DNA from: Candidatus Woesearchaeota archaeon
GTDB lineage: Archaea > Nanobdellota > Nanobdellia > Woesearchaeales > 21-14-0-10-32-9
Assembly: GCA_021735165.1 (NCBI GenBank)
Contig: JAIPHP010000014.1
Location: 1-35,373, forward strand
DNA: 35,373 nt
Direction of reading: 5' to 3'
Both the position numbers and the translations under genes were made by a program. The number at the start of each line of letters is the position of its first letter. Position 1 is the stretch's first letter. Below, piece by piece: positions 4,539-35,373 of the stretch. The notes beneath the pieces are model-generated. The model saw only the letters and a program-made list of their open reading frames with translations, searched no databases and was not told the origin of the DNA.

Positions 4539-6311
4539 ATGAAGAAAAGAATCATGATTGTAAAAAAAGAAAAATGCAACCCAGAAGGCTGCGGAGGATA
4601 CCTTTGCATGCGAGTAAGCCCTTCAAATAGAGCCGGCAAAGAAGCAATACTAAAAGATACTGATGGCAAAGTAAAAGTAAACGAAGAAGTAATAACTGAC
4701 GCAGACAGAATAGCAGCAAACAAATGCCCTTTTGGAGCACTAACCATGGTAAACCTTCCTGATGAACTAAACCAAGACCCAATACACAGATACCCTCCAA
4801 ACGGCTTTGCACTTTACAAATTACCAATACCAATATTTGGAAAAGTAGTTGGAATAATAGGAAGAAACGGAATAGGAAAATCCACCACATTAAATATACT
4901 AGCAGGCATTCTTAAACCTAATTTAGGAGAAGATGGAAAAAAAGCAACATACAAAGATCTAATTGAAAGATTCAAAGGAACAGAAGCACAAACATTCTTT
5001 GAAAAACTAGAAAAAAAAGAAATAAAAATAGCATACAAGCCACAAATGGTAGACCAAATACCAAAAGCATTCACTGGAACAGTAAATGAACTACTAAAAA
5101 AATCAGATGAAAAAAATGAATTAGATAAAATAATAGAAGAACTACAACTAAAAAACATACTAAATCATGACATAAAAGACATATCAGGAGGAGAACTACA
5201 AAGAGTAGCAATAGCAGCAACAGTACTAAAAAAGGCAAACCTATACATGTTTGATGAACCAACATCATATCTAGACATAAAACAAAGAATAAAAATAAGC
5301 AAATTCATAAAAAAACTAGCAAACGAAAACACAGCAGTACTAGTAATAGAACACGACCTAATAATCTTAGACTACATGACGGACCTAATACATCTAATGT
5401 ATGGACAAGAAGGAGCTTACGGAATATGCTCTTTAGCAAAAACAACAAAAGCAGGAATCAACACATACCTATCAGGATACATCACAGATGAAAACATGAG
5501 ATTTAGAGATCATGAAATAAAATTCGACAAACACGCCCAAGAAAAAGAACACAAATCAGAACAACTAACAAAATGGGAACAATTCAAATACAAAATAGGA
5601 CAATTCTCCCTAGACGTAGAACAAGGAAATATAGAAAGACACGACATAATAGGAATCCTGGGTGAAAACGGAATAGGAAAAACAACATTTGCAAAAATAA
5701 TCTCAGGACAAATAAAAGAAGAAGACCACATCACACAAAAAGAAACAAACCACGGAAAACTAAAAATCTCTTATAAACCTCAATACATAGAAAAAAACGA
5801 TGAACTAGTAATAATATATCTGAAAGAAGCAATGAAATACGACTTACAATTAATAAGACCACTACAAATAAAACAATTAATGAACAAAACATTAAATCAA
5901 TTATCAGGAGGAGAACTACAAAGAGTAGCAATCGCAAAATGTCTCTCAGAAGAAGCAGACATCTACCTAATGGACGAACCCTCCGCATACCTTGACGTAG
6001 AACAAAGACTAACAATAAGCAAAGCAATAAAAGAAATGATGATAGAAAAAGGAAAATCTGCAATAATAATAGACCACGACCTACTATTCATAGACTACCT
6101 ATCAAACAAAATACTAGTCTTCGAAGGAGAACCCGCAATCAAAGGAAAAACATCAGGACCACACCCAATGGAAAACGGAATGAATAGGTTCCTTAAAGAA
6201 CTCAACATAACATTCAGAAGAGACGAAGAATCACACCGTCCAAGAGTAAACAAAATAGGCAGCCAAAAAGATCAAGAACAAAAATCAAGTGGAAAACTAT
6301 ATTATTCCTAA
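4539..6311 (+). CDS. ABCE1/Rli1 ribosome-recycling ATPase with reduced Fe-S domain
   Basis: Splits ribosomes after termination together with aRF1/Pelota. Order: N-terminal ferredoxin-like domain (1-70), NBD1 with GIIGRNGIGKST and ISGGELQR...FDEPTSYLD, NBD2 with GILGENGIGKTT and LSGGELQR...MDEPSAYLDVEQR, then a C-terminal hinge with TFRRD and RPRVNK. Both ATP sites look intact, and 590 residues is normal. The odd part is the Fe-S domain. Canonical ABCE1 has eight Cys (CxPxxCxxxCxxxCP and CxxCxxCxxxCP). Here only C13, C18, C23 and C63 remain: the first CP is VSP (S27), and the second CxxCxxC is replaced by ITDADRIAAN. Those four are the ligand set of one cluster; the other set is gone. Own promoter, monocistronic, divergent from the peroxiredoxin. 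Confidence 0.96.
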   Translation: MKKRIMIVKKEKCNPEGCGGYLCMRVSPSNRAGKEAILKDTDGKVKVNEEVITDADRIAANKCPFGALTMVNLPDELNQDPIHRYPPNGFALYKLPIPIFGKVVGIIGRNGIGKSTTLNILAGILKPNLGEDGKKATYKDLIERFKGTEAQTFFEKLEKKEIKIAYKPQMVDQIPKAFTGTVNELLKKSDEKNELDKIIEELQLKNILNHDIKDISGGELQRVAIAATVLKKANLYMFDEPTSYLDIKQRIKISKFIKKLANENTAVLVIEHDLIILDYMTDLIHLMYGQEGAYGICSLAKTTKAGINTYLSGYITDENMRFRDHEIKFDKHAQEKEHKSEQLTKWEQFKYKIGQFSLDVEQGNIERHDIIGILGENGIGKTTFAKIISGQIKEEDHITQKETNHGKLKISYKPQYIEKNDELVIIYLKEAMKYDLQLIRPLQIKQLMNKTLNQLSGGELQRVAIAKCLSEEADIYLMDEPSAYLDVEQRLTISKAIKEMMIEKGKSAIIIDHDLLFIDYLSNKILVFEGEPAIKGKTSGPHPMENGMNRFLKELNITFRRDEESHRPRVNKIGSQKDQEQKSSGKLYYS

Positions 6312-12637: not shown

Positions 12638-12760
12638 GGGCCCGTAGCCTAGCCTGGATAGGGCGACAGCCTTCTACGCGCTAGAATCTCTAGATTCGCT
12701 GGCTCTTAGCCAGAACGCAAAGAGAGCTGTAGATCGCGAGTTCGAATCTCGCCGGGCTCA
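12638..12760 (+). tRNA. tRNA-Arg(UCU) with intron
   Basis: Acceptor GGGCCCG/CGGGCTC, D-stem GCCT/GGGC, anticodon stem ACAGC/GCTGT, loop CT-TCT-A-A with anticodon UCU (12673-12675), variable AGATC, T-arm GCGAG-TTCGAAT-CTCGC, discriminator A; CCA is not encoded. A 48-nt intron lies at the usual archaeal site after base 37. The last 12 bases of the tRNA and two following bases are repeated 110 bp downstream. Confidence 0.93.
12677..12724 (+). other. Intron of tRNA-Arg(UCU)
   Basis: 48 nt between A37 and A38. It holds the hairpin CTGGCT/AGCCAG (loop CTT) and AGAATC/GATTC before it. Removal gives a standard seven-base anticodon loop, as expected for splicing endonuclease acting on a bulge-helix-bulge. 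Confidence 0.85.
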
Positions 12761-19870: not shown

Positions 19871-20010
19871 GCGGACGTAGCCAAGCGGTCTAAGGCGACC
19901 GCCTGCAGAACACAAGCAGAAACTGCTATGATGAGTTCACAACTAAAGTATGTGAACGATGATAAAAAGCTGATAGCGGTTATTCGGGGGTTCAAATCCC
20001 TCCGTCCGCT
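19871..20010 (+). tRNA. tRNA-Cys(GCA) with intron
   Basis: Acceptor GCGGACG/CGTCCGC, D-stem GCC/GGC, anticodon stem ACCGC/GCGGT, loop CT-GCA-G-A with anticodon GCA (19905-19907), variable TATTC, T-arm GGGGG-TTCAAAT-CCCTC, discriminator T73 as expected for Cys. CCA is not encoded. A 66-nt intron follows base 37. Confidence 0.93.
19909..19974 (+). other. Intron of tRNA-Cys(GCA)
   Basis: 66 nt with hairpins AGCAG/CTGCT (loop AAA) and GTTCAC/GTGAAC (11-nt loop). It contains ATGATGA at 19928-19934 (perfect box C) and CTGA at 19970-19973 (perfect box D), so a C/D guide-like RNA is possible. However, the GTTCAC hairpin occupies the expected guide segment. Confidence 0.75.
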
Positions 20011-26433: not shown

Positions 26434-27402
26434 TTGAACAAAATAAAACTTTCTCAAAAAAACACATACCTAACACTAACAATAATATTCTTCATAACAA
26501 CAATAATACTCGCAATGATTATTCTTACAGAAAACAAAACAAGCCAAGAAGAATACGACCTACTAAACCCGCACATAGCAAACAAAGAAATAGAAGACTT
26601 TCAAAAATTTCAAGAAAATGCAATAATAACATATAAACCGCTAGAACAAAAACTCCAAGAAATAACAAATAAAACCCAAGGAACCTACAGCATATACTTT
26701 GAAGACTTAAAAACAGGAGCATCACTAGAAATAAATGGAAAAGAAAAATACACTCCTGCAAGTCTCCTAAAAATACCAACAACCGCAGCAATACTCAAAA
26801 TGGTAGAAGAAAAAAAACTGACAATGAATAAAACAATAAAAATAACACAACTAGACATAGATATGAGCTCAGGACAATTCCTCGGAGTTCTAACAGAAAA
26901 AGACATAGGAACAGACAAAACAATAGAAGAATTACTAAAAATATCCCTACAAAAATCAGATAATTCTGCAAACCACGCACTATTTAGAAATTTGCCTACT
27001 GAAAAATACATAGAAGCAAGATTATCTATGGGCATGCCCCTAACAACAACAATACTAAAACCAGAAGGCACAACAAAAATGACCCCAAAACAATACACAA
27101 ACATATTTAGATCACTATATTTATCAAGCTACTTAAGAAAACCATATTCTCAATGGATACTACGAACACTAACAAACACAATACATAACAAATGGATACC
27201 CTCAGGACTTCCAAAAGGAACAACAATAAGTCACAAAATCGGATTTTGGAAAGAAGAAGAAAGTTACCATGACTGCGGAATAATATACACACAAAAAACA
27301 AATTACATTTTATGCATAATGAGCAAAAACACAACAGAACCAGAATCAATAGAAACAATGAAACAGATATCAAAAGAAATATACGAATACATCAAAAAAT
27401 AA
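26434..27402 (+). CDS. Membrane-anchored serine hydrolase of the class A beta-lactamase/PBP fold
   Basis: 322 residues. One N-terminal helix (about 12-31) anchors it, with the enzyme outside. The catalytic motifs of the family are all present: S110-x-x-K113 in PASLLKIP, S175-D-N177 in KSDNSANH, and K268-I-G270 in SHKIGFW, which corresponds to KTG. Lack of an obvious Glu166 loop makes a true beta-lactamase less certain. Archaea lack murein, so a DD-peptidase role is unlikely; a peptidase, esterase or defence against lactams from neighbours are options. It probably starts at TTG 26434, leaderless, just after a dispersed repeat. Confidence 0.82.
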   Translation: MNKIKLSQKNTYLTLTIIFFITTIILAMIILTENKTSQEEYDLLNPHIANKEIEDFQKFQENAIITYKPLEQKLQEITNKTQGTYSIYFEDLKTGASLEINGKEKYTPASLLKIPTTAAILKMVEEKKLTMNKTIKITQLDIDMSSGQFLGVLTEKDIGTDKTIEELLKISLQKSDNSANHALFRNLPTEKYIEARLSMGMPLTTTILKPEGTTKMTPKQYTNIFRSLYLSSYLRKPYSQWILRTLTNTIHNKWIPSGLPKGTTISHKIGFWKEEESYHDCGIIYTQKTNYILCIMSKNTTEPESIETMKQISKEIYEYIKK

Positions 27403-30191: not shown

Positions 30192-31742
30192 TTATCCTTC
30201 TAACTCGCCATCAATTATCTCCTGAAAATCAGAAAAAGGATGCGCGCCAATTAATTCAACATCATTAATAAAAAATGTTGGAGTTCCTGTTATACCAAGG
30301 TCATCTCCTTCTTCAATCTCCTCAAAAATTTGATTTAAAGCGTAATCATCTTGCAAACAATCTATAAAATCGTCTTCATCCAAACCCAATTCAGAAGCAA
30401 CTTCAACATAATTAACTGAATCTAAATTATCTAAATTAAATAATTCAAAAGAATACTCCCAAAATTTTCCTTGATGAGCTGCACACTCAGCGGCAACTGA
30501 AGCATTCAAAGAATTAGGCTGGATACCAATCAAAGGATAATTTTTAAAAACAAATAAAACATCTTCAGATTCAATATATTCATCAATAATCAAACCAAAA
30601 GTATTAGTCATAAACTGCTTAGAGTACGGATCTTCAAACCCTGCAAACATAGTTATCGTGACAGGAGCATCTGAATCACCTAACACTTTATCGCCCATAT
30701 ATTCACCTGAGTCTCCTCCAGTGTCATTAGTAGCACTATCTACTGGTTGAGTGAACAAATTACCATTATCATCAACCTTTAACAACCAGGAATTCCCATT
30801 TGACGACCGCAAAACAACACCATCATTTGAATCAAACAAAAGATCTCCATCAAGATTAATATTTCCATCAATATTTATTGGAGTTTCAGATTCTAAAGTT
30901 ATTCCCTCTGCATTCAAATAAAAGTCTTCTCCAACATCAACAACTAAATCTTCATCAGTTTCAACATCGACACCTTCTTCAAAAACCATGCTGATATCAT
31001 CTTCAGAAATTAATTCTTCAACATTCAGCTCAAAATCAGAAGCGCTAAGTGAAAAAGTATCATAATTCAACTCAAGGAAGTCACCATAACCTTGAACACT
31101 ATCTGATTCAATTAAAAAATCATCTGAACCAAGCGTTATTAAATTAGAACCGTCGATATTAATTACATTTCCAGTTAAATCCATCCTTCCATCTGCATCT
31201 AATTGAATATTATTCTGAGAATTAAAAGCAAAATTATCTGCAACCATCTCAATGTTTTCTCTTGCGTTCAAAAAGGCATTATCTATTCTTAAATCAAAAT
31301 CTTCAGCATCAACATTTAAGTTCGAACTAGTAGAAAAACCATAAGAACCATCCCTATCAAATGAAGCCAAAGCATAATCCTCATCATGCATTTGCATTAA
31401 ATGAGTTGTGTCCAAAACCAAATAGTTACCTATAAGAGGCGCTATATAATTAGTATAAATATAAAAGAACCTATTATTAGATTTTATATCTGCATTATCT
31501 TTCAATTCAGACCTTATTTTTTCTACTATATCATCAACATCTTTAGCATTGTCAGAAACAACCTTCTTTTTTTCAATATCTTTAACTTCAAGCTGAGTTA
31601 CTTTAAAATCCTTTTTTGCATTTTCAGGAACAACATATGCATCAGATCCTACTTCATATGTAACTTTCAAAGACATCACGCTTGGAATAAATATTAATCC
31701 GAAGACAAACAAAAGAATTGCAAATTTAAATTTTATTTTCAT
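30192..31742 (-). CDS. Secreted two-part protein: beta-repeat domain plus DsbA-like domain without CxxC
   Basis: 516 residues with a signal peptide (FKFAILLFVFGLIFIPSVMS). Residues about 115-330 are Asp/Asn-rich short strands in a regular rhythm (NVDAEDFDLRI, NIQLDADGRMDL, VINIDGSNLITL), probably a beta-helix/solenoid. The C-terminus (about 345-516) is a DsbA/thioredoxin_4 domain: VTITMFAGFEDPYSKQF, FVFKNYPL, AAECAAHQGKFWEY and GITGTPTFFIN with the cis-Pro. The active site, normally CPxC, is DPYS, so the redox Cys are gone. ATG 31742 is preferred over TTG 31745 because GGTGAT lies four bases upstream. A binding or scaffold role outside the cell is inference. Confidence 0.8.
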   Translation of the reverse strand: MKIKFKFAILLFVFGLIFIPSVMSLKVTYEVGSDAYVVPENAKKDFKVTQLEVKDIEKKKVVSDNAKDVDDIVEKIRSELKDNADIKSNNRFFYIYTNYIAPLIGNYLVLDTTHLMQMHDEDYALASFDRDGSYGFSTSSNLNVDAEDFDLRIDNAFLNARENIEMVADNFAFNSQNNIQLDADGRMDLTGNVINIDGSNLITLGSDDFLIESDSVQGYGDFLELNYDTFSLSASDFELNVEELISEDDISMVFEEGVDVETDEDLVVDVGEDFYLNAEGITLESETPINIDGNINLDGDLLFDSNDGVVLRSSNGNSWLLKVDDNGNLFTQPVDSATNDTGGDSGEYMGDKVLGDSDAPVTITMFAGFEDPYSKQFMTNTFGLIIDEYIESEDVLFVFKNYPLIGIQPNSLNASVAAECAAHQGKFWEYSFELFNLDNLDSVNYVEVASELGLDEDDFIDCLQDDYALNQIFEEIEEGDDLGITGTPTFFINDVELIGAHPFSDFQEIIDGELEG

Positions 31743-31975
31743 CAAATCACCTTTTAATTTTTTAAAAACATAAACTTAAAATATAGAAAACAAAACACCT
31801 TTAAATAATTTGTCATTAGAGAGTAGCTATTGTGCTTTTATTTGTTAAAAAGCAAAAAACCACCAATAAATATGCTAAAATTCTAGAAATCGCAAATCTA
31901 AAACATCAAAAAGAAAACAAAACCACAAAAAAACCAAAAAGTGCCCAAAAAAAAACAAAACTACAAAAAAATAAT

Positions 31976-32627: not shown

Positions 32628-33644
32628 TTACTTTTTCAAAGCGGAATACAATCCTGCAGTAAACTGCTTCCAAAAATGCACCTTATCTTGAACCAACAAA
32701 TCATAATGAATTATATATTCTTCAATATCTTTCTTAAACAACTCAATACTTGAATTAAGCTCTTGCGGATTCCTAGCATTCAAGTAAAGAATCAAATCAT
32801 AATCTCCAAGCATTTTACCTGCATAAAAAATATTTTGAAGCCTCTCAAAAGGTCTTTTTAAAACATTATAAGGTATATCCTGCTTAAGGCGAACAAGCAA
32901 ATAATAAGTTACAAACCCTAGTTTTTCTAAATTAGGACTTATTGCAAAACTAAGAATTATTTTATCTTTAATTAAAGCTGCAATTCTTTTCTTAGCAGTA
33001 ATTCGATCAACACCTATATTTTTACCAAGATTTATAAGAGATTTTCTTGGATCATCAGATAATTCCTTGAGTAATTCAACTTCAGTTTCTGAAACATGCT
33101 GTCTTTCAAAATGAGGACTAACAGGAAAGTTTCTGTTATTGATAAGTGCGCTAAATGAATGATCCATTTTTTTCTGAAAATCAACATCTTCATAAATAGA
33201 AGGATTAAGCTGTGTAAATTCCAAATCATATAAATGAGTTAGAACAACGTACCCCTTAATCTTATTTTTACATACACTAAATAGATCTTCCTTTATACGG
33301 TTAAGATGAAATCCATCCCACGCATCAACAATTATCTGAGCATCATATCTACCTATAAAACTATTTATCCACATCACAAAAGGATGTTTAGCCAATTCTA
33401 AATACAAATCACCATATTTCTTCAAATCTGCATCAAAACTAACAAGAATATGATATCTTGTAAATCCAAGTCTCCTCGCATCAATAAACAAAACATATTG
33501 TTTAATCATTTCTGAAATTTCTAACTTTCTTATTCTATACAAAACAGCATCTTTTGATAATTTTAAAGCACTCCCTATAGTACTATGAGGAATTCTACAA
33601 TTTCTACCTAAAAGTTCCATTATTTGATAGTCTTTTTTATCCAA
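32628..33644 (-). CDS. Tandem Lrp/AsnC-type regulator, second paralogue
   Basis: 338 residues built as two Lrp units like the protein at 18592. Unit 1: DKKDYQIMELLGRNCRIPHSTIG, HTH LKLSKDAVLYRIRKLEISEMI, ligand-like domain to about 145. Unit 2 starts near 185: SETEVELLKELSDDPRKSLINLG, HTH IGVDRITAKKRIAALIKDKII, and a second beta-alpha domain. The start appears to be TTG 33644 (LDKKD), about 25 nt after a TATA (minus, 33655-33672). Apart from its fold, no target is evident. The nearest genes are the divergent cyclodipeptide synthase (95 bp away) and aIF5A, which it follows on the same strand side. Confidence 0.85.
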   Translation of the reverse strand: MDKKDYQIMELLGRNCRIPHSTIGSALKLSKDAVLYRIRKLEISEMIKQYVLFIDARRLGFTRYHILVSFDADLKKYGDLYLELAKHPFVMWINSFIGRYDAQIIVDAWDGFHLNRIKEDLFSVCKNKIKGYVVLTHLYDLEFTQLNPSIYEDVDFQKKMDHSFSALINNRNFPVSPHFERQHVSETEVELLKELSDDPRKSLINLGKNIGVDRITAKKRIAALIKDKIILSFAISPNLEKLGFVTYYLLVRLKQDIPYNVLKRPFERLQNIFYAGKMLGDYDLILYLNARNPQELNSSIELFKKDIEEYIIHYDLLVQDKVHFWKQFTAGLYSALKK

Positions 33645-33739
33645 TATAATCTAAATGTTTAATTTAATATAAAAATATATCGCATTATTCTTAAAATACA
33701 ACAACAAAATTCATATATTTTAAACACCACTAAATAGTA

Positions 33740-34357
33740 ATGAAAACAAAAGAAAAATTGGTTAAGGAACAAGAAACACTAATAATAGGAATCAGCATAG
33801 AAAACAGCTACTACAACAAAGAAAACATAGAAACAATAATAACACAAACCAAAGACAAATACAAAACAATCAAAATAATGATCCCAGACAAACCAATGAT
33901 CCACACATACACTGGGATGGGATACACAAAACAAAAAGCACAGAAAAAAGCAAGAAAAAAAGGAAACTACCTAAAAAACAAAATAAAAGAAATAATACAA
34001 AACAAAAACATCAACAACATAGAAATAATAAACTGGGAAACAGACATAGAAACAAAACAAGAATACAAACAAAACTACAAAAAAATAATAAGACTATACA
34101 AAACAAACAAACAATTCCAACAAGACATAAACAACACAACAAAAGAAGTAATCCAAAACAAAACAAAATCAGACAACTACAAAAAAGCAACACCCTTTAT
34201 CCTAAAAGAAATAGCATACATAACAGCAAGCCAAGAAATAAACGAAGAAAAAACAACATACACATACCACAAAAATTGGCCAATCTACGAAAACATACTC
34301 CAAAAAAAATACGGAACAATAAAAGAAACACTACCCAAATTCAAAATAATAAACTAA
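33740..34357 (+). CDS. Cyclodipeptide synthase
   Basis: Uses two aminoacyl-tRNAs to make a cyclic dipeptide (diketopiperazine). 205 residues, short for the family (about 220-250). The N-terminal GISIENSYYNKENIE matches the GxSxxNSYF motif, with S19 the likely nucleophile that receives the first aminoacyl group. PDKPMIHTYTGMGYTKQKAQKKARKKGN follows in pattern the P-x-x-TxxAxGY...A..KA...GN region. F153-x-x-x-E157 (PFILKEIAY) corresponds to Y178/E182 of AlbC, with Tyr replaced by Phe. Y176-H177 aligns with Y202/203, N22 with N40, pointing to an NYH-like group. Very Lys/Asn-rich, as other plus-strand genes. No oxidase or methyltransferase for tailoring is beside it. Divergent from the second tandem-Lrp gene. 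Confidence 0.82.
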   Translation: MKTKEKLVKEQETLIIGISIENSYYNKENIETIITQTKDKYKTIKIMIPDKPMIHTYTGMGYTKQKAQKKARKKGNYLKNKIKEIIQNKNINNIEIINWETDIETKQEYKQNYKKIIRLYKTNKQFQQDINNTTKEVIQNKTKSDNYKKATPFILKEIAYITASQEINEEKTTYTYHKNWPIYENILQKKYGTIKETLPKFKIIN

Positions 34358-34363
34358 AAAACT

Positions 34364-34702
34364 CTACTTCAAAGCAATACTCAAAGAATCCAAAGTAATA
34401 TCATGATGATCAGCATCCCAAACAACACCCTTATCTTTAAACAACAAAACCTGAGGAGACTCATGCTTAACACCAGAAAACTCAGCAGCAAAATCACTAA
34501 CATCTCTATGCTCCTGAATAATAATCGCAGCAAAACTCAAATCCGGATTATCCTTATTCTTCAACATAAAATTAGTAAAAATCTTATAAGCAGAAGCACT
34601 AACAGGACAAGCAACACTATGCTTAAAAACAAAGACAGGATGCTTAGAACTCTCATCAACAACGTGCTTAAACTCCTCAACAGAATCAATTCTATGAATC
34701 AT
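34364..34702 (-). CDS. Monothiol bacilliredoxin-like protein (YtxJ/BrxC, DUF2847)
   Basis: 112 residues with a thioredoxin fold. VFVFKHSVACPVSASAY contains a single active Cys (C32) in the place of CPxC, and HESPQVLLF with the cis-Pro is nearly invariant in YtxJ; HRDVSDFAAEF and HHDITLDSL also match. YtxJ removes bacillithiol from protein thiols in Firmicutes. Archaea are not generally known to make bacillithiol, so the partner thiol here is unknown (coenzyme A or another). TATA GTTTTAAAGTATT (minus, about 34720-34733) is at leaderless distance from ATG 34702. It is convergent with the cyclodipeptide synthase, six bases apart. Confidence 0.82.
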   Translation of the reverse strand: MIHRIDSVEEFKHVVDESSKHPVFVFKHSVACPVSASAYKIFTNFMLKNKDNPDLSFAAIIIQEHRDVSDFAAEFSGVKHESPQVLLFKDKGVVWDADHHDITLDSLSIALK

Positions 34703-34977: not shown

Positions 34978-34985
34978 AAAAAAAA
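34978..34985 (-). terminator. T-run terminator after 23S rRNA
   Basis: The minus strand carries eight T immediately after the expected 3' end of the rRNA. The 34703-34977 stretch beyond it holds only A-rich sequence and a CAAAAC/GTTTTG hairpin near 34916; no 5S rRNA is seen. Confidence 0.45.
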
Positions 34986-34989
34986 GAGG

Positions 34990-35373
34990 AAATGACGTTT
35001 AGTAATTGCGGGCTAAATACCTCGTTGCCTTGGTACGTACACCCCAATTCTATCAAACCCATCTTCTATAGGCGTCTAAGAGATCTCTTTTCAGGGCTGG
35101 TTTCGTGCTTAGATGCATTCAGCACTTATCCATTAGCGCGTAGCTGCCCAGCGTGCCTTGTCAGACAACTGGTCGACCAGTGGCGCCGATTCCTCGTTCC
35201 TCTCGTACTAAAGGATTCTTCCCTTCAGATCTCAAACACTTCCAGTAGATATCAAACAAACTGCCTCACAGCGTTCTGAACCCAGCTCACGATCCCTTTT
35301 AATGGGTGAACACCCCCACCCTTGGACGCTTCTGCACGCCCAGGATAGGAAGAGCCGACATCGATGTAGCAAG
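34990..35373 (-). rRNA. 23S ribosomal RNA, 3' end (partial)
   Basis: The reverse complement carries the conserved domain VI: AGTACGAGAGGAAC, the sarcin-ricin loop (plus-strand 35196-35209), GAGCTGGGTTCAGAACG, and TGCTGAATGCATCTAAGC near the 3' end. The GC content is far higher than the surroundings. The 5' part lies beyond the window; the 3' end at about 34990 is approximate. Confidence 0.95.

Follow-up and report, generated by a model that had tools for sequence, protein, structure and literature searches.

A cyclodipeptide synthase gene divergent from a tandem-Lrp regulator gene in a small archaeal genome

The window, meaning the whole stretch of 35,373 nucleotides analysed here, belongs to a Candidatus Woesearchaeota genome of 1.10 Mb in 31 contigs (97.9% complete), and the archaeon is probably dependent on a host. 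Two divergent genes and the region between them form the locus of interest.

32628-33644, minus strand: tandem-Lrp/AsnC-type regulator, 338 aa, TTG start, with two HTH_AsnC stretches, divergent from the synthase gene
33645-33739, between the genes: divergent promoter region of 95 bases, conserved in the alignment of nine Lrp orthologues
~33668-33676, between the genes: TATA-like box on the Lrp side, from the alignment
~33681-33704, between the genes: conserved spacer and possible operator, from the alignment
~33709-33721, between the genes: TATA-like box on the synthase side, roughly 20-30 bases before the ATG, from the alignment
33740-34357, plus strand: cyclodipeptide synthase (CDPS) of NYH type, 205 aa, ATG start, intact open reading frame

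The CDPS reading frame scored 92.2 bits against the Pfam profile PF16715 (cut-off 27) and 119.8 bits against the NCBIfam profile TIGR04539 tRNA_cyclodipep (cut-off 45). PF16715 matched once in the source genome and never in 14 control genomes, and the solved-structure relatives retrieved by sequence search were CDPSs without exception. A first-pass annotation had proposed a cyclodipeptide synthase in a small archaeal genome and had named a profile search and a tree as checks; both family cut-offs were passed, the protein fell with the NYH and not with the XYP enzymes, and the observation of a cyclodipeptide synthase gene is confirmed. The protein had also been called short, which is correct as to its 205 residues but describes a typical length, most archaeal and CPR-like NYH relatives having 199-226 aa. 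An origin from viruses was rejected, as the protein had no relatives in viral contigs, and so was one from plasmids or phages, in which the window CDPS likewise had no relatives; a search of plasmids with the CDPS of a relative returned distant bacterial plasmid CDPSs only. A role in defence was discarded, there being no PADLOC or PHROGs match.

Alignment to AlbC placed the active-site positions as follows.

33794-33796, plus strand: S19, equivalent to AlbC S37
33803-33805, plus strand: N22, equivalent to AlbC N40
33887-33889, plus strand: D50, equivalent to AlbC D68
34196-34198, plus strand: F153, codon TTT, equivalent to AlbC Y178
34208-34210, plus strand: E157, equivalent to AlbC E182
34265-34270, plus strand: Y176-H177, equivalent to AlbC Y202 and H203

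The landmark motifs listed in the first-pass annotation all aligned with AlbC (G17-I-S19-I-E-N22-S-Y24-Y25; G61-Y62, K70-A71 and G75-N76; E157; Y176-H177). The strictly conserved CDPS residues S37, Y202 and E182 (AlbC numbering) are matched by S19, Y176 and E157, and the NYH-subfamily residues N40, Y202 and H203 by N22, Y176 and H177. Equivalents of S37, N40, E182, Y202 and H203 are shared with the NYH CDPSs AlbC, Rv2275, YvmC, BtCDPS and 6ez3, and the active-site S, N, E, Y and H are retained among relatives of just 25-40% identity. The family residue that is not matched is Y178, at which the window CDPS, as had been annotated, carries Phe (Phe153, codon TTT), whereas the known NYH CDPSs carry Tyr. 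Because of Phe153, the window protein is, as judged from its sequence, a variant of the CDPS family and not a standard member.

AlbC Y178 is well conserved but has not been described as strictly conserved, and the AlbC Y178F substitution substantially impairs loading and activity (PMC5935735). Phe153 could therefore signify a CDPS homologue with a lost or changed reaction, be it slow loading, hydrolysis of aminoacyl-tRNA only, or decay, and the long branch and K/I/T/N-rich composition of the protein point the same way. We nevertheless regard this as unlikely. The frame is intact, the remaining catalytic residues are all retained, and the composition follows that of other plus-strand genes. Tyr occupies the position in most relatives, but Phe recurs in three CPR-like CDPSs (L021, L050 and L051) and in the archaeal L004 and L014, and with five other CDPSs carrying it, Phe is not unique to the window protein. 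In addition, the TTT codon opposes the A bias of the plus strand, on which T3 is just 2%. We would read Phe at this position as a recurrent natural variant.

The pocket motifs of the window CDPS are IGMPWYIY (P1) and TEVNKWP (P2). Published motifs of P1 pockets that accept Pro or Leu include LGLPWLFF and LGFPWLVF (PMC5816076), and the likeness of IGMPWYIY to them gives a weak hint of a Pro- or Leu-containing product, an assignment that we make very tentatively. Among the relatives, Cys was observed at the catalytic Ser in three CDPS homologues above the family cut-offs (L076 5311-6060, minus strand, in G096; L049 7638-8315, plus strand, in G730; L030 1381-2163, plus strand, in G684), two of which also have Tyr for His203. 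These are possibly a Cys-nucleophile branch of CDPSs; a 2018 survey of the family dropped sequences lacking the Ser (PMC5816076).

An AlphaFold2 model of the window CDPS, built from an 11-sequence alignment, had a pLDDT of 89.3 and a pTM of 0.86. The top 46 PDB matches in a Foldseek search were CDPS chains (query TM 0.64-0.84), and TyrRS-derived chains followed at a TM of ~0.55. The model had the same fold as the NYH CDPSs 6ez3 of S. haemolyticus, BtCDPS, YvmC and AlbC (TM ~0.75-0.84), with 13-23% structural sequence identity to known NYH CDPSs. The first-pass annotation had made its call dependent on a class-I aaRS-like fold, and this fold was recovered, CDPS chains ranking first. Its homologous position after the first strand suggests that S19 lies in the pocket.

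PF16715 was carried by 5 of 99 near relatives, 12 of 305 genomes of the order and 17 of 371 genomes of the phylum, as well as by 2 of 145 genomes in the phylum of an Aenigmatarchaeota-labelled genome and 5 of 287 in the phylum of L021, a small-genome bacterium whose "CPR" label, like that of L050, L051 and L030, is one that we infer. Archaeal CDPSs are sporadic, not singular. The earlier statement that few are known is accurate for the literature, in which surveys listed none in 2014 (PMC4159871), none in 2015 (PMC4609331) and, among ~800 CDPSs in 2018, one metagenomic sequence of XYP type (PMC5816076); as a statement of rarity it goes too far, given the counts in the order and phylum. The NYH enzymes of the 2018 survey came from Actinobacteria, Firmicutes, Proteobacteria and a few animals (PMC5816076), and the window CDPS differs from known NYH CDPSs in being archaeal. 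No report of a CDPS with DPANN, Woesearchaeota or Nanoarchaeota was found in the literature covered, which mostly excludes subscription journals.

The NYH/XYP split was supported at 100/97 in one tree and 98/95 in another. The window CDPS grouped with DPANN and CPR-like sequences (support 79/82 and 80/81, or 79-80% bootstrap), whereas the sampled classical bacterial NYH enzymes formed a separate group (100/99-100). Since the bacterial rows came from plasmids and the PDB only, with Bacteroidota present as one partial row (9gun), the apparent separation of the DPANN/CPR-like group from bacterial NYH enzymes is provisional. ParcuCDPS of Parcubacteria RAAC4_OD1_1, in which S26 and D58 are the equivalents of S19 and D50, lay apart from the window CDPS, among the XYP enzymes. 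The archaeal AQS34941, classified as XYP-type (PMC5816076), was outside the set of sequences compared here; it and ParcuCDPS come, like the window CDPS, from small-genome or metagenomic lineages. The branch of the window sequence is long and its composition skewed, and placing it within the group of archaeal CDPSs linked to the Lrp gave AU p values of 0.13-0.16; a single clade of the four Lrp-linked CDPSs tested was rejected (p ~1e-4). The six-row CDPS alignment is too divergent for pattern scans. Codon usage of the CDPS is like that of neighbouring plus-strand genes, and therefore the gene would not be a very recent arrival in the genome. At the loci of the CPR-like NYH CDPSs L050 (6680-7390, minus strand) and L051 (1830-2555, plus strand), a SAM-methyltransferase gene was observed beside the CDPS or within ~0.6 kb of it, which suggests methylated products there.

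The facing gene was confirmed as the tandem-Lrp regulator that had been annotated: PF13404, the AsnC-type HTH, matched two stretches (63.2 bits, cut-off 27), and the RAM/AsnC_trans_reg domain PF01037 reached 22.5 bits, under its cut-off of 25. The source genome encodes seven further tandem-Lrp proteins, so an adjoining Lrp by itself means little, and we dismissed the notion that every tandem Lrp is noteworthy. What upholds the importance given to this one is that it belongs to a separate orthologue set, mostly divergent from a CDPS and with a conserved promoter region. A profile search found orthologues in 9 of 353 genomes of the order (553-686 bits); next below were paralogues in G949 and G916 (298-376 bits), and in a phylum-wide search other genomes gave <=152 bits. 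The orthologues formed a clade with 100/100 support, apart from the seven paralogues of the source genome, on a stem of 1.48 compared with tips of 0.13-0.45.

Six of the nine orthologues are divergent from an adjoining CDPS, under six different family codes: those of the window, G120 (L018), G063 (L019), G096 (L076), G904 (L093) and G949 (L096). The same-order relative 'Candidatus Woesearchaeota archaeon CG10 37_12' is represented by L018, which is one contig with L006/G120. In the phylum sample, 5 Lrp carriers and 17 CDPS carriers overlapped in four genomes (hypergeometric p 1.5e-5, and 2.6e-4 without the window genome). Across four loci compared, the Lrps were 59-71% identical and the CDPSs 25-43%; fibrillarin, a housekeeping protein, of the window genome was 55% identical to that of G063 and 62% to that of G096. 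Because the other three orthologues face another gene, this Lrp cannot be regarded strictly as a regulator of CDPSs. Their partners are a 120-130-aa protein in G258 and G916 and a 145-aa lipoprotein-like protein in G929, none with a Pfam match, and no CDPS remnant was found beside the orphan Lrp of G258. The partners in G258 (L075 4962-5324, minus strand) and G916 (L094 5947-6339, plus strand) are similar to each other and look like a membrane protein, and the Lrp orthologues that they face have the same promoter spacer.

When numbered from the start of the Lrp gene, the intergenic regions of all nine loci could be aligned across 77 bases, interrupted by no more than one gap of one base. Conserved blocks were TATATAAA on the Lrp side, CATTATTCTTAAAAATA within the spacer and TTTATTATATTGT on the partner side, the window copy being less exact on both boxes. 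Mean identity reached 0.65 among the six loci with a CDPS and 0.67 over the full nine, compared with 0.37 for dinucleotide shuffles (z of 22 and 36). Shuffling takes no account of shared descent; fourfold sites of the neighbouring Lrp gene served as a second yardstick. Since these sites were just 36% identical, compared with 65% in the promoter region, selection appears to maintain the latter. Inspection of the spacer by eye for a palindromic operator did not establish one.

The pair was missing from a same-genus genome, G001, whose contig L047 is otherwise collinear with the window (fibrillarin, Nop, M50 peptidase, zinc ribbon, IF5A, BrxC-like and 23S) and conserved in both flanks.

32642-34367, spanning both genes: segment absent from G001 and carrying exactly the Lrp and the CDPS, from blastn/blastp of L047 against the window

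At this site G001 has 587 unrelated bases without any CDPS remnant. These comparisons indicate that gain or loss affected the Lrp and CDPS together, as one unit of two genes. A DsbA-like gene (30192-31745) is also absent from the G001 contig. Within L047, at the site of the pair, we noted a GC-richer stretch (~5487-5640) with an inverted repeat, GGCTCTGGCCGG ... CCGGCTAGAGCC, possibly a non-coding RNA, for which there was no Rfam match.

A patchy distribution and joint gain or loss would also be expected if the two genes were mere travelling companions on a mobile segment, with the Lrp regulating itself or other genes and not the CDPS. The three orthologues that face other genes, and the Lrp-linked CDPSs not forming one clade, fit that explanation as well. 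We judge it improbable, however, because the partner-side TATA box and the spacer stand at a fixed distance in 6 of 6 CDPS loci, the promoter region is far more conserved than fourfold sites, the orientation is divergent in every case while the chromosomal surroundings differ among the six genomes, and no integrase or transposase adjoins the window pair.

We consider it probable that the locus encodes a stand-alone NYH-type CDPS pathway whose transcription is controlled by the divergent tandem Lrp, and the gene pair has the look of a genuine, regulated small-molecule pathway and not of a stray gene. By homology to AlbC, the CDPS would bind two aminoacyl-tRNAs and load the first amino acid on Ser19, with Phe153 in place of the Tyr that normally helps to position the first aminoacyl group; the second amino acid would then be added and the cyclic dipeptide released, with Tyr176 as proton relay. 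The tandem Lrp would occupy the stretch that separates the two TATA boxes, control transcription of the CDPS and respond to an amino acid or related ligand. No tailoring gene lies beside the window CDPS, and because no tailoring, exporter or receptor gene common to the inspected Lrp-CDPS loci was seen by eye, a free cyclodipeptide may be the product.

The nearest functional analogue, by arrangement, is yvmB-yvmC of B. subtilis, in which the divergent MarR-type YvmB represses both genes (PMC4992311). Both systems have a regulator divergent from the CDPS and a common control region (PMC4992311), but the window regulator is a tandem Lrp and not MarR, there is no P450 (cypX) partner, and the window locus is not a member of yvmB-yvmC. 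A host-signalling role of the cyclodipeptide is speculation. We think it rather improbable that in host-dependent archaea the Lrp and CDPS form a circuit gated by an amino acid or by the cyclodipeptide, in which the tandem Lrp senses one of these and adjusts production of a diffusible cyclic dipeptide acting on the same cells or the host, and that Phe178 and the Cys nucleophile of some relatives mark a distinct DPANN/CPR branch of NYH enzymes. If the window enzyme is active, tRNA-dependent cyclodipeptide synthesis of the NYH kind extends to archaea with ~1-Mb genomes, in which few small-molecule pathways are expected; its product would then be a concrete candidate for a molecule by which DPANN archaea interact with other cells or a host, and the enzyme a natural experiment on the need for AlbC Tyr178. 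The locus is compact and directly testable, with two genes and, between them, 95 bases of promoter region that are conserved from family to family.

The contig is archaeal, as it bears, besides fibrillarin, Nop and IF5A-like genes and synteny with the same-genus genome, the following feature.

34980-35373, minus strand: archaeal 23S rRNA

Contamination by a bacterial CDPS gene binned into an archaeal genome, which the mostly bacterial origin of the CDPSs described so far (PMC5816076) might suggest, is extremely improbable in view of these archaeal genes, the collinear contig of the same-genus genome, the Lrp-CDPS pairs in five further genomes of the order and a codon usage like that of neighbouring plus-strand genes.

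Across the window (1-35373), plus-strand genes are A-/C-rich, with A at third positions of ~0.6, and minus-strand genes T-/G-rich, which is consistent with replication-linked skew; this skew probably drives the K/I/T/N-rich composition of the CDPS. Rfam tRNA matches at 12638-12760 (plus strand, 123 bases) and 19871-20010 (plus strand, 140 bases), both missed by ARAGORN, look like intron-containing tRNAs, and the insert of the second has box C/D-like UGAUGA and CUGA elements and is perhaps an intron-borne guide RNA. A monothiol bacilliredoxin-like protein is encoded at 34364-34702 on the minus strand (PF11009 102 bits, TIGR04019 above cut-off); it is 72% identical to its counterpart in the same-genus genome, and few relatives have one. 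Finally, the plus-strand gene at 26434-27402 encodes a protein of the Beta-lactamase2 family (117 bits) in this small archaeal genome.
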